Source of the DNA: Myxococcus stipitatus
Lineage (GTDB): Bacteria > Myxococcota > Myxococcia > Myxococcales > Myxococcaceae
Assembly (NCBI RefSeq): GCF_037414475.1
Contig: NZ_CP147913.1
Location: 1,116,001 to 1,180,000 of the forward strand
DNA: 64,000 nucleotides
Direction of reading: 5' to 3'
The first letter of the stretch is position 1. Each line of letters begins with the position of its first letter. Below, in pieces: positions 48,604 to 51,933 of the stretch. Made by a program: the position numbers and the translations under genes. The notes under the pieces were generated by a model that made no database searches, had not been told where the DNA came from, and saw nothing but the letters and a program-made list of their open reading frames with translations.

Positions 48604-48800
48604 TCATCCCCCGGCATCCACCGCACGGGCGGCCCGAGGGGCCAGGCGCATCAGGTCTCGAAGCGCCGAGGGAGGCACGTCGTTGTATCTCCGAAAGGTC
48701 CTGGAGAAGTGGGCCTGTTCGGAGAAGCCCGTGCAGAACGCGACGTCCGTGAGCGTCAGGCGCGAATCCGAGAGCAGCGCGTGCACGGCGTCGACCCGTG
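48604..48800 (-). pseudogene. AraC-type regulator remnant, 5' part missing
   Basis: Only the last ~65 codons of an AraC-family regulator remain. They carry the second half of the DNA-binding domain: SRLTLTDVAFCTGFSEQAHF and then SRTFRRYNDVPPSALRDL. Homology stops abruptly at about 48800, where sequence of a cyclase gene on the opposite strand begins. The open frame continues to 49095 but there only mirrors that cyclase. No start or ribosome binding site precedes the remnant, so it is very unlikely to make a working regulator. Confidence 0.75.
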
Positions 48801-48801
48801 A

Positions 48802-49125
48802 GCGCTGCAAGGGCTCAACACCCAGCTGCGCGCACGAGGACATCCCGAGCTGCGCATCCACGTGGGCCTCAACAGCGGGCCCGCCGCCGCGGGCAACATC
48901 GGCTCCGAGCACTATCTCCAGTACGCGACCCTCGGCGACGTCACCAACGTGGCCAGCCGCGTGTGTGGCGTGGCGCGCGCCGGGGAAGTCGTGCTCTCGG
49001 AGTCCACGCGGGCGCGCCCCAAGAAGTCGCCCTGGCTGCTCACGCCGCTGCCGCCCCCCCGGGTCAAGGGGAAGGATGAACCCCTGACGCTCCACCGGGT
49101 GGAGTGGGAGGCGTCGAGCGGCTGA
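48802..49125 (+). pseudogene. Class III adenylate/guanylate cyclase remnant, 5' part missing
   Basis: About 107 codons of the C-terminal part of a class III nucleotide cyclase. Visible are IHVGLNSGPAAAGNIGS, the ATLGDVTNVASR helix that normally carries transition-state residues, and GEVVLSEST. In-frame TGA at 48799 closes the reading frame immediately upstream, and the metal-binding first half of the domain is gone. It cannot be catalytic alone. It abuts the AraC remnant head to head. Confidence 0.8.
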
Positions 49126-49151
49126 GCTGCCCGCCTGTCCGGAAGGGTGGC

Positions 49152-49180
49152 TTGACTCGCACCGGGCTCATCGGTCAGCG
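49152..49180 (+). promoter_or_regulatory. Possible promoter of the thr leader
   Basis: TTGACT at 49152-49157 matches the -35 consensus in five of six positions. A hexamer 17 bases on (TCAGCG, 49175-49180) is a poor -10. Transcription would begin about 12-15 bases before the leader ATG. Position fits; strength of evidence is modest. Confidence 0.35.
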
Positions 49181-49198
49181 TTCCGGTTCGTGAGCGAC

Positions 49199-49321
49199 AT
49201 GCGCCTCGACACCACGCGGGCTTCGGGACAGACGTCCCTGGCCTCCGTTCGCGCGTCGACCCTGTCCTCCACTCCTCGCACGACGACGACTACGACGACC
49301 CGCGGAGCGCGGGAGGTCTAG
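49199..49321 (+). CDS. thrL: Threonine-rich leader peptide of the thrA attenuator
   Basis: A 40-codon ORF ending at TAG 49319-49321. Codons 28-34 (49280-49300) are seven consecutive threonine codons, and 12 of 40 residues are Thr. The peptide has no other recognisable character. It plays the role of E. coli ThrL: ribosome stalling at the Thr run when charged tRNA-Thr is scarce. The last threonine codon overlaps the first arm of a hairpin, and a U-tract terminator starts 27 bases after the stop codon. A weak GTGAG element precedes the ATG. Sequence similarity to ThrL is only in the Thr run; the call rests on architecture. Confidence 0.85.
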
Positions 49322-49373
49322 CTCGGAACTGGCTGTGCTTCCGAACTGGCCCCGCGCTCCCCGGCGCGGGGCC
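49299..49373 (+). promoter_or_regulatory. Transcription attenuator: alternative 1:2, 2:3 and 3:4 stems
   Basis: Segment 1 CCCGCG (49299-49304) pairs with CGCGGG (49308-49313), giving a 6-bp 1:2 stem. Segment 2 GGAGCGCGGG (49304-49313) is the perfect 10-base complement of segment 3 CCCGCGCTCC (49351-49360), the antiterminator. Segment 3/4 forms the 10-bp terminator at 49348-49373, whose left arm and loop are consumed by the antiterminator. A ribosome stalled early in the Thr run leaves segment 2 free for 2:3. One that reaches the stop codon covers segments 1 and 2 and allows 3:4. A small pause-type hairpin lies at 49324-49343. Confidence 0.88.
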
Positions 49374-49383
49374 TTTTTGTTTT
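49348..49383 (+). terminator. Intrinsic terminator of the thr attenuator
   Basis: GGCCCCGCGC (49348-49357) pairs perfectly with GCGCGGGGCC (49364-49373) around a six-base loop, followed by TTTTTGTTTT (49374-49383). It is the clearest rho-independent terminator in the window, and it sits upstream of a gene rather than after one. Confidence 0.93.
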
Positions 49384-49405
49384 CCCTCCACCCACCAGGA
49401 ACTCC

Positions 49406-49486
49406 ATGACGACGCAGACCTCGACGACGCCCCCCTCCCCCGCCTCCCACCCGCGCTCCTTGCTCGAGGTGCCACCATGCGCGTGA
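49406..49486 (+). CDS. Small Thr/Pro/Ser-rich ORF overlapping the thrA start
   Basis: A 26-codon ORF between the terminator and thrA. It starts with ATG after AGGA at a good distance and begins [12 protein letters not shown], with five Thr in the first eight residues. Its TGA (49484-49486) lies inside the thrA start region, overlapping by ten bases. It could couple thrA translation to its own or be a second Thr sensor. It could also be a chance frame in a short gap. No homologue is recognised. Confidence 0.4.
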
Positions 49487-51933
49487 TGAAATTCGGAGGG
49501 ACCAGCGTCGGCGGCACCGCGCAGATGCGGCGCCTGGTGGACCTGGTGGAAGTCGCCCGGAGGGAGACGCGGGTCATGGTGGTGGCCTCGGCCGTCTCGG
49601 GCATCACCAACCTGCTGGTGGAGTCAGCGAAGCTCGCGCAGGAAGGCGGCGAGGTGGACTCCGCGCTGTCTCGCTTCGAACAGACGCACCTGGCGCTCGC
49701 CCGGGAGCTCGCCGCGGGGGACCGGCTCGCGCTCGTGCCACTGGAGCTGGGCCTGGCGTCCATCTCCACCGAGCTGCGTGGACTGCTTCAGGGCGTGGGG
49801 CTCTTGCGGGAGTGCTCTCCCTCGGTGCTGGCCCACCTGTCGGGCCTGGGAGAGCGCGCCTCGTGCCTGCTGCTGGAGGCGCTGATGGCCGCGCGCAACC
49901 TGTCGCCCCACACGGTGGAGCCCCGGGAGATGCTCATCTGCTCGGGAGACCCGCTCCAGGCCACGCCGCGCATGGACGAGATTCGCGCCCGCTTCGCGCC
50001 GCTGCGCGAGGCCAGTGGCCCCGGGTTGATGCTGATGCCCGGCTTCTTCGGCGGCGACGAGCGGGGCAAGACGATGTCGCTGGGACGGGGCGGCTCGGAC
50101 TACTCGGCCGCGTTGGCCGCCGCCGCGCTGGATGCGGCGCTCCTGGAGATATGGACGGACGTGGACGGCATCTACAGCGCCGACCCGCGCATGGTCCCCG
50201 AGGCCTTCCCCCTGCCCGAGGTGAGCTTCGAGGAGGCGATGGAGCTGGCGTACTTCGGCGCCAAGGTGCTCCACCCGAAGACGATTTCCCCCGCCCGCGA
50301 GCGCGGCATCCCCGTGCGCGTGTGCAACAGCTTCCGCCCCGAGCACCCGGGCACCCTCGTGACGGACTCCGCGGCGCCGCCGGACCATCCGGTGCGCGGC
50401 CTGTCGTTCCTGAAGGACGTGGCGCTCATCAACATCGCCGGGGCGGGGCTCAAGGGCGTCCCCGGCACCGCCGCGCGCGTCTTCGCGGCCATGGCGCGCA
50501 CCGGCATCTCCGTGGTGCTCATCACCCAGGGCTCCAGCGAGTGCTCCATCAGCTTCTGCGTCCAACAGTCCGAGTCCGCCGCCGCCGTGCGCGCGCTGGA
50601 GTCGGAGTTCGAGGTGGAGCGCGAGGCGGGCAAGGTCGATACGATTGAAAGCCAGGGCCAGCTCGCGGTGCTCAGCATCGTGGGCGACGGCATGCGCCAC
50701 CGGGTCGGCGTGGCGGGCACGTTCTTCAAGGGCCTGGCCGAGGTGGGTTGCAGCATCGCGGCCATCGCCCAGGGCTCCAGCGAGCGGAGCATCTCCGCCG
50801 TCATCACCGAGGCGGACGGCCCCCGGGCCATGGCCCATGTGCACCACCGCTACTTCGGCACCACGGAGGTGGTGGAGCTGCTGGTGGCGGGCGTGGGCAG
50901 CGTCGGCGGAGAGCTGATGCGCCAGCTTCGCCAGCAGGCCCCGCATCTGAGGGCCCAGGGCGTGGACCTGCGCGTGTGCGCCATCGCCAACAGCCGAGGC
51001 GGGCTCGTCGAACCCGCGGGCATCTCCCTGGAGAGCTGGAAGGAGCGGCTGGAGTCCTCCAACGCCCCCGCGTCGCTGGAGTCCTTCCGTGAGCAGGCGC
51101 GCGCGAAGCGTCCGGGCAGGCCCATCTTCGTGGACTGCACCAGCAGCGAGGACGTGGCGCTCGCCTATCCCTCGCTCCTGGCGGCGGGGCTCCACGTCGT
51201 CACCGCGAACAAGAAGGCCAACGCGGGGCGCATGGCCCACTGGCGCGCCATCCGGGAGACCGCCTCCCGCCACCAGCGGCGCTTCCTGTACGAGACGAAC
51301 GTGGGCGCGGCCCTGCCCGTCATCGACACGCTCAAGAACATGCTGCGCACCGGAGACCAGGTGCGGCGCATCGACGGCATCCTCTCCGGCTCGCTGTCCT
51401 TCATCCTGGGCCTGACGGAGCAGGGCGAGCCGCTGTCCCAGGCCGTGGGCACCGCCATGGAGAAGCGCTTCACGGAGCCGGACCCGCGCGACGACCTCCA
51501 GGGCACGGACGTGGCGCGCAAGGTGCTCATCCTCGCGCGGGAGCTGGGGCGCCAAGTCGAGCTGGAGCAGGTGTCGCTGGAGTCGCTGTTGCCCGAGGAC
51601 TTCGATGCGTCCGGGCCACTCGACGCGTTCCTCGCGCGGCTGCCGAGCATCGACGCGGCCTTCCAACGCCGCGTGGAGCGACTGCGCGACGAGGGCCAGG
51701 TGCTGCGCTACGTGGGCAGCGTGGGGCCCGACGGCTGCGCGGTGGGGCTCAAGGCGGTGCCCCTGGAGAACCCGCTGGCGGCGGTGAAGGGCGGAGAGAA
51801 CGCGCTGAGCTTCCTCTCGGAGCGCTACAGCCCCACGCCGCTGGTCATCCGAGGCTACGGCGCGGGCGCGGCGGTGACGGCGTCGGGCGTGCTCGCGGAT
51901 GTGCTCCGGCTGGTGGAAGGCCCGCTGACGTAA
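49477..51933 (+). CDS. thrA: Bifunctional aspartokinase - homoserine dehydrogenase I
   Basis: An 818-residue fusion enzyme for the first and third steps of threonine/methionine synthesis from aspartate, near the E. coli ThrA length of 820. The aspartokinase domain (1 to about 290) starts [12 protein letters not shown] and has [13 protein letters not shown] and [15 protein letters not shown]. Two ACT regulatory segments (about 305-450) include [20 protein letters not shown] and [20 protein letters not shown]. The homoserine dehydrogenase domain (about 465-815) has [21 protein letters not shown] and [12 protein letters not shown]. The ATG at 49477 has GAGG upstream and matches the family N-terminus. 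No thrB or thrC follows. Expression is governed by the leader attenuator, and threonine feedback through ACT is expected from the family. Confidence 0.96.

Follow-up and report, generated by a model that had tools for sequence, protein, structure and literature searches.

A probable threonine attenuator on a nearly leaderless transcript before thrA of Myxococcus, with relatives in the Holophagae

The thrA gene of the Myxococcus strain analysed here is preceded by what is in all likelihood a ribosome-mediated attenuator that responds to charged tRNA-Thr, acts on a nearly leaderless transcript, shares its ancestry with leaders of the Holophagae (Acidobacteriota) and was acquired together with thrA. 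The parts of this switch, their conservation, their alternative pairings and their likeness to the Holophagae leaders are read from the sequence. The locus lies in a 10.3-Mb genome; the stretch analysed, here called the window, is 64 kb long (1116001-1180000), and coordinates below 64,000 refer to it. The initial annotation had claimed a complete classical leader-peptide threonine attenuator before thrA in a myxobacterium, and on this central point it was right: the parts are exact and are conserved at 26/26 loci of the genus for which upstream DNA is available. The features by which ribosome-mediated attenuators are recognized are present, namely a probably translated leader bearing codons for the amino acid that the pathway makes (its frame is kept at 24/24 aligned loci) and, after the control codons, an antiterminator and an intrinsic terminator that exclude each other. 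The elements of the locus are as follows.

49152-49157, + strand: -35-like TTGACT of the putative leader promoter, its role predicted (GCTTGACT, invariant at 24/24 loci)
49190-49321, + strand: leader ORF with GTG start, 43 codons and stop TAG at 49319-49321, probably leaderless (frame conservation, alignment)
49280-49300, + strand: seven consecutive Thr codons, the predicted sensor (sequence)
49299-49304, + strand: segment 1, pairing with 49308-49313 of segment 2 (RNA folding, alignment)
49304-49313, + strand: segment 2, GGAGCGCGGG, pairing with segment 1 or with 49351-49360 of segment 3 (complementarity; few shuffles match the strength of its duplex with segment 3)
49348-49360, + strand: segment 3, common to antiterminator and terminator (complementarity)
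49364-49373, + strand: segment 4, the 3' arm of the terminator (complementarity)
49374-49383, + strand: terminator U-tract, TTTTTGTTTT (sequence; T-run at 24/24 aligned loci)
49406-49486, + strand: second short ORF with a 26-residue product, its last 10 nt shared with the start of thrA (frame conservation)
49477-51933, + strand: thrA, bifunctional aspartokinase/homoserine dehydrogenase I, 818 aa (NCBIfam and Pfam matches)

The identity of the regulated gene is clear. Its product scores 987 bits against NCBIfam NF006959 (cut-off 726), contains the Pfam domains AA_kinase, ACT_9 and Homoserine_dh, and is identical to E. coli ThrA at 371/819 positions (45%). The 3' neighbour, a PAS/GAF histidine kinase gene, is convergent with thrA, whose end it overlaps, so that thrA is probably the only gene behind the switch. 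On the other side, upstream of the leader promoter, lies an open stretch (48799-49125) that begins just past an in-frame stop and by eye is reminiscent of the C-terminal region of a class III nucleotide cyclase (GLNSGPAAAGNIGSEHYLQYATLGDVTNVASR); it is perhaps a gene remnant. A search of a plasmid collection with 49150-49700 gave zero matches.

Segment 2 is a perfect 10-bp complement of 49351-49360, and 49348-49357 pairs with 49364-49373 over a perfect 10 bp that is followed by TTTTTG at 49374. The 2:3 antiterminator and the 3:4 terminator both need segment 3 and are therefore mutually exclusive. When the positions originally given for the Thr run, the 1:2 stem, the two 10-bp pairings and the U-tract were re-derived from the sequence, all were found correct. 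In the folding of the leader region that had been proposed as a check, the RNA of 49280-49400 forms both the terminator and the 1:2 stem (-53.4 kcal/mol, z -2.33, with 4/200 shuffles as good).

From this arrangement we infer the following course of events. The transcript would begin at about 49187-49190, on or just 5' of GTG 49190, and a ribosome would load on its nearly leaderless end. With threonine plentiful, the ribosome should cross the seven Thr codons, reach the stop at 49321 and cover segment 2; 3:4 would then pair and RNA polymerase would halt at the U-tract, releasing an RNA of ~190 nt. With charged tRNA-Thr scarce, the ribosome would stall in the Thr run and cover segment 1, which would otherwise compete through the 1:2 stem with 2:3 pairing; 2:3 could then pair, the terminator would be blocked and thrA would be transcribed. 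Translation of thrA would follow, probably through coupling with the second ORF, which overlaps the gene.

The leader had been presented as a 40-codon ORF from ATG 49199. Its stop and its Thr run stand: the reading frame 49199-49321 encodes 12 Thr, seven of them consecutive. The start, in contrast, is probably GTG 49190. In 24/24 relatives, ATG or GTG stands where the window has GTG 49190, and counted from this codon the differences in leader length are all multiples of three at the 24 aligned loci, whereas the spacer 3' of the leader stop shows all three length remainders (8, 8 and 8 loci); it is this difference that places the start. Seven successive ACN triplets occur at only four places in the whole 10.3-Mb genome, the leader included, and the other three, which lie in in-frame open stretches of 783, 216 and 135 codons, are by eye not leader-like. 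In the 26 Myxococcus leaders, Thr accounts for 77% of the control segment as against 15% of the remaining peptide. It makes up the whole of the Thr/Ile/Met/Asn share on its own, and Ile is absent from the Myxococcus control segment. The codon ACU makes up 16% of control-segment Thr codons in Myxococcus and 46% in Corallococcus; within thrA its share is only 1%.

The distance between promoter and start codon suggests that the leader is probably leaderless. The -35-like box lies 37-38 nt before the start codon at 26/26 Myxococcus loci. Across 72 Myxococcus and Holophagae leaders, collected by a search that itself required a -35-like box at a distance of 30-45 nt and, where candidates tied, preferred the one closest to 36 nt, the distance from TTGAC to the start is 35 (37 loci), 36 (9), 37 (9) or 38 nt (17). 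A promoter of sigma-70-like geometry with this spacing should start its transcript at, or within ~3 nt of, the start codon, which is how the start at ~49187-49190 is predicted, although the -10 region departs from consensus. Shine-Dalgarno sequences are found at none of the 15 distinct Myxococcus leader starts and, 3' of the terminator, at the best start of 15/15 distinct loci. The leader starts of Corallococcus (5/5 distinct) and of some Holophagae (41% of 37 distinct) do score as Shine-Dalgarno, and these scores arise from purine-rich, -10-like sequence. A precedent is the S. meliloti trpL leader transcript, which begins at the ATG of its leader ORF according to the relevant passage of PMC7298713.

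Orthologues of ThrA were found in 25/25 genomes of the genus in one search and in 27/27 in a second, the genome of the window being counted in both. Upstream DNA is available for 26 Myxococcus loci (L001-L025 without L016, plus L031 and L032; L016 is cut off upstream, and in its genome, G011, the element lies on a different contig). All 26 have the leader, a Thr run and the terminator, the longest uninterrupted Thr run ranging from 5 to 13; the conservation of the run and stems in relatives, which had been named as a test of the proposal, thus holds throughout the genus. GCTTGACT, GGTCTAGC, GGCCCCGCGCT and CGCGGGGC are invariant across the 24 aligned loci, and the attenuator is present in M. 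xanthus (L061). Among 13 Corallococcus-type loci (three more with the same leader, L065, L066 and L072, were left uncounted because at least L066 repeats a genome), 12 have a homologous leader in which the control segment is thinned out (e.g., LTETRTRTGLTPRGARTA); no Thr run longer than two occurs in these 12. At the remaining locus, L041, the leader frame is broken by a deletion. The Corallococcus-type loci retain the 2:3 pairing and have a longer terminator. More distant relatives of thrA are different: 13 AK-HSD genes of other Myxococcaceae genera, 39-43% identical, show no Thr-run leader within 600 nt or the remainder of the contig, and none was seen in the upstream 600 nt or available contig of the second AK-HSD gene in the genome of the window (L055).

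The consequences of ribosome position were modelled by folding leaders of 26 Myxococcus, 12 Corallococcus and 41 Holophagae loci (L041 and five Holophagae leaders without a called terminator were excluded), with the RNA masked to 13 nt beyond the first base of the A-site codon; according to PMC4833913 the ribosome covers ~12 nt past the codon. When the ribosome occupies a Thr, Ile, Met or Asn control codon and segment 4 is yet to be made, upstream RNA captures a mean of 10.5 of 11 segment 3 bases in Myxococcus, 10.3 of 12 in Corallococcus and 8.4 of 9.8 in Holophagae; with the ribosome at the stop the means fall to 4.0, 2.1 and 0.8, and the full-length fold is the terminator in 79/79 leaders. 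In these models, then, the control codons are so placed that a stalled ribosome would free 2:3 and a ribosome at the stop would not. Before segment 4, capture of segment 3 is likewise seen when the ribosome is upstream of the control codons (26/26 Myxococcus, 12/12 Corallococcus and 40/41 Holophagae leaders) and when there is no ribosome (23/26, 12/12 and 39/41). The folds therefore separate a ribosome that is past the run from one that is not, rather than Thr codons from others, and they do not establish termination as the default of an untranslated leader. Full-length folds without a ribosome contain the terminator in 25/26 Myxococcus, 12/12 Corallococcus and 29/41 Holophagae leaders. Full-length folds keep the antiterminator at some control codon in 22/26, 5/12 and 29/41, that is, only in part, and the order of synthesis must therefore matter. 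In the leader of the window, 6/11 segment 3 bases are still captured when the ribosome has reached the stop, and one of its eight control codons lets the full-length fold retain the antiterminator. E. coli thrL, passed through the same script as a control, has 6-9 bases captured at Thr and Ile codons and 0-1 from the next codon on, and its full-length folds keep the antiterminator for no control codon.

Shuffling gives a measure of how special the 2:3 pairing is. Its duplex energy is within the best 5% of shuffles for 44/51 distinct leaders; the count of captured bases is so for only 28/51, and shuffled Myxococcus leaders already pair 7.1 of the ~11 segment 3 bases. Pairing each segment 2 with its own rather than a swapped segment 3 lowers the energy from -18.0 to -19.9 kcal/mol; 0/5000 permutations do as well, a figure that is no strict probability because the leaders are related. 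Covariation, also suggested at the outset as a check, has borne out the proposal only in part. Within the genus it is seen at 0/19 pairs because the sequences are too alike. Across phyla (32 of 71 distinct sequences used) it is clear for the terminator, with nine two-sided cells at one inner pair (0/500 shuffles), and weak for 2:3, where eight two-sided cells are reached by 69/500 shuffles and the score by 26/500.

Between the terminator and thrA lies the second short ORF, which is conserved and was absent from the initial annotation. Its length differs among the loci by multiples of three in 24/24 cases, and it is for this reason treated as translated. It overlaps thrA by 4 nt in part of Myxococcus and by 10 nt in the rest, including the window. 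This is the layout expected for translational coupling, and translation of thrA is probably coupled to that of the ORF. The leader/gene pairs surveyed in PMC4833913 are ones in which the leader lies close to the gene without overlapping it. In the window the second ORF is itself Thr-rich (5 Thr among its first eight codons); in the M. xanthus group it is not. At many loci it starts MQPTP or MQPSP, resembling an in-frame N-terminal extension of Holophagae ThrA (MQPTPIRVMKFGG), and it looks as if it were an old thrA start that slipped out of frame.

The nearest leader-bearing ThrA proteins outside the Myxococcaceae are encoded in Holophagae MAGs (54-56% identity). At 1e-150, ThrA matches occur in 58/93 Holophagae genomes, four of them distant (37-40%); no leader was seen at these four (L181-L184), nor at ThrA loci L069 and L070. 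At 46/50 further Holophagae loci a leader ORF precedes thrA, with its start codon 35 or 36 nt past TTGAC. The four misses are L076, where the contig is cut, L144, where a leader with only two Thr is seen by eye, and L176 and L177, which have Thr-rich ORFs but lack TTGAC at this distance. Thr, Ile, Met and Asn, residues of the aspartate family, make up 64% of the Holophagae control segments and 15% of the peptide outside them. A hairpin with a U-tract follows 41/46 of the leaders; in 5/46 none was found. The Holophagae leaders resemble those of Myxococcus in the gene they precede, in a near-equal -35 spacing, in the placement of the stop codon, in a GCCCCGC terminator and in the register of the 2:3 pairing, and GCGCGGCCGGTCTAGC is nearly letter for letter common to Holophagae L075 and Myxococcus L009. 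They differ in that Thr is mixed with Ile, Met and Asn, with a longest Thr run of mostly 2-5, and in that Holophagae ThrA appears to start at an upstream in-frame ATG with no separate second ORF (loci read by eye, e.g., L146).

The distribution of ThrA points the same way. At 1e-180 it is found in 42/195 Myxococcota genomes but in just 2/90 sampled genera; 20 of 297 sampled Acidobacteriota have it, 19 of which were already in the Holophagae search. In a 30-row ThrA tree, with the long rows L069, L070 and L178 included, the Myxococcaceae form a group with L070 and 11 Holophagae rows that leaves out four other Holophagae (support 95/95); 0/200 bootstrap trees unite the Holophagae as one group. 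Given the homologous leaders at 46/50 Holophagae loci, the nesting of ThrA there and the 2/90 Myxococcota genera, joint transfer of attenuator and thrA from a Holophagae-like donor is the simplest reading. Most likely the ancestor of Myxococcus and Corallococcus gained both at once; this direction, which we infer, rests on the distribution and on a root that was drawn, rather than inferred, between the gammaproteobacteria and the rest.

A covariance model of the element, R1, was built from 32 sequences, and many of the sequences that it matched were members of its training set. It has one match in the 10.3-Mb genome of the window and matches 27/27 genomes of the genus, 15/16 Corallococcus-type genomes (one partially; the miss, G064, has thrA at a contig end) and 59/93 Holophagae genomes. 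Its E-values are not specific and R1 alone proves no homology, because ordinary terminators match it too: matches in other Myxococcota, in G033 (L212), G113 (L195) and one of four in G125 (L213), were read as such and rejected. E. coli thrL scores 28.5 bits, which is not taken as proof of homology. Twenty further matches were read, of which seven are ordinary terminators and 13 have leader-like ORFs; in 9 of the 13, TTGAC lies 35-38 nt before the candidate start (counted by eye). The 13 are as follows.

L196 and L197 (Holophagae): before thrB (gene family called)
L203, L204 and L206 (Holophagae): before ilvD (gene family called)
L208 (Holophagae): before an aspartokinase gene (gene family called)
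L199: before asnB (gene family called, NF006949)
L198, L200, L201 and L202: before LysR-type genes (L198 and L200 called; L201 and L202 by likeness to L198)
L207: gene family called; thrC ~1.1 kb downstream
L214: downstream gene not settled

The Holophagae leaders before thrB, ilvD and aspartokinase genes follow the same plan, Thr/Ile-rich or Val/Leu/Ile-rich to suit the pathway. At L198, L201 and L202 (Holophagae) a conserved Val/Ile-rich leader (NLSVVVIIDHGAGAI) and a terminator precede a gene for a LysR-type regulator, which may itself be under attenuation. Before Holophagae asnB, at L199 (the L215 locus) and L216-L219, a leader with clustered Asn (VNFANINPPPGWSW and variants) stands 35 nt past TTGAC and is followed by a hairpin and a T-run, making an asparagine attenuator possible. 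Among 30 AsnB loci, five (L215-L219) have the TTGAC-spaced Asn leader, 19 have a T-run without a leader by the filter applied, two have neither, and at four the start was not located. One may go further and picture the Holophagae as holding a toolkit of leaderless attenuators of one plan (Thr/Ile/Met/Asn for thrA and thrB, Val/Leu/Ile for ilvD, Asn for asnB), from which the unit of attenuator and thrA crossed to the ancestor of Myxococcus and Corallococcus, the sensor then becoming pure Thr in Myxococcus and the old ThrA N-terminus a separate coupling ORF; for this fuller history we regard the case as evenly poised.

Other readings of the locus have to be set against a leaderless, cis-acting and transferred attenuator. 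The mildest departure keeps the switch and gives it an ordinary 5' untranslated region, with translation from ATG 49199 or another start. ATG 49199 is indeed in frame and has counterparts in L001-L006 and L031, and the thrL start codon of E. coli has a TTGACT 79 nt upstream; on the other hand no counterpart of this ATG is listed at the remaining loci, which, as stated, have ATG or GTG at the position of GTG 49190 (24/24), and the missing Shine-Dalgarno sequences at Myxococcus leader starts (0/15) speak against this reading as well. The spacing is also hard to reconcile with an untranslated region of ordinary length: within 150 nt upstream of the 72 leader starts there are 76 TTGAC boxes, 72 of them at 35-38 nt, where chance would supply 0.07 per 150 nt. 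We regard an ordinary 5' untranslated region as unlikely. That the terminated leader RNA or the peptide acts in trans, with control of thrA secondary, is very improbable. Its model is S. meliloti rnTrpL/peTrpL, of which PMC7298713 states, in the part concerned, that the terminated leader RNA beginning at its ATG acts in trans; against it, conservation at the Myxococcus loci is concentrated in the Thr codons, the stems and the U-tract, and the N-terminal half of the peptide drifts.

The initial annotation had suggested a possible independent origin of the myxobacterial attenuator, a suggestion that is probably wrong in view of the homologous leaders before Holophagae thrA, the near-identical GCGCGGCCGGTCTAGC and the nesting of Myxococcaceae ThrA among Holophagae ThrA. 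What can be said for independence, with a mere resemblance to Holophagae and enteric leaders, is that the peptides differ strongly outside the control segment, that the long Thr run is missing from most Holophagae leaders (longest run 1-3 in 32/46) and that R1 also matches ordinary GC-rich terminators (L195, a tRNA-Ser with a hairpin, at 46.8 bits). The shared gene, order of parts, pairing register and similar -35 spacing, together with the ThrA trees, make it quite improbable nevertheless. Hardly credible, finally, is an absence of regulation, the Thr-rich ORF having arisen by chance ahead of a terminator that is constitutive or unrelated. GC-rich genomes form hairpins readily, as the pairing of the shuffled leaders attests, but chance would have to account for 26/26 loci of the genus and for another phylum with the element before the same gene, for a frame that is kept, and for a single model match in 10.3 Mb. 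A ribosome-mediated attenuator shared with the Holophagae remains the preferred reading.

Leader-peptide attenuation is a textbook mechanism. What is probably new here is the leaderless leader, itself a probable feature, the switch common to two phyla and the second, probably coupled ORF. Searches of the open-access literature found no threonine attenuator described for either Myxococcus or Acidobacteria, and the earlier statement that none was known from myxobacteria agrees with this; comparative surveys elsewhere may list some, most subscription papers being outside the scope of the search. M. xanthus, in which the switch is present, is genetically tractable and has amino-acid starvation as its developmental signal. 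As its transcript probably has no 5' untranslated region, the switch offers a natural system for attenuation that begins with leaderless initiation. A 2010 survey (PMC2965389), in the parts that bear on this, describes leader peptides as previously known only from Proteobacteria and Actinobacteria, adds the Firmicutes, leaves undecided whether they reached the Firmicutes by transfer or arose repeatedly, and states that a function had been assigned to almost no predicted attenuator of the Acidobacteria. Here two phyla share both the switch and the gene behind it, and with a tree that favours joint transfer the question of transfer or repeated origin becomes testable on one locus.

Known systems provide two comparisons. 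Covariance searches keep the element apart from the thr attenuator of E. coli (thrL; Rfam RF00506, Thr_leader): RF00506 has no match up to E=10 over 48900-49700, where the Rfam search gave sub-threshold matches only, and none at the gathering threshold (55 bits) in nine related loci, two of them gammaproteobacterial, with E. coli thrL as the positive control at 122.1 bits. The RF00506 family is defined by mixed Thr/Ile control codons, which E. coli ThrL has; the Myxococcus leader, with Thr-only control codons (Ile is present in Holophagae), falls outside the family on this count as well as by score. The S. meliloti trpL leader is alike in that its transcript starts at the leader ATG, the 5' end being predicted in Myxococcus and given for S. 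meliloti in the passage cited (PMC7298713); it is unlike in sensing Trp, in preceding another gene and in belonging to an alphaproteobacterium. The E. coli thr attenuator is alike in having a Thr-coding leader directly before the gene for AK-HSD I, a segment common to antiterminator and terminator, and the same stall-folding pattern. It is set apart by the absence of Ile from the Myxococcus control segment, by the probably leaderless start, the second, probably coupled ORF and the other phylum, and by what lies 3' of thrA: a convergent gene in Myxococcus, thrBC in E. coli.
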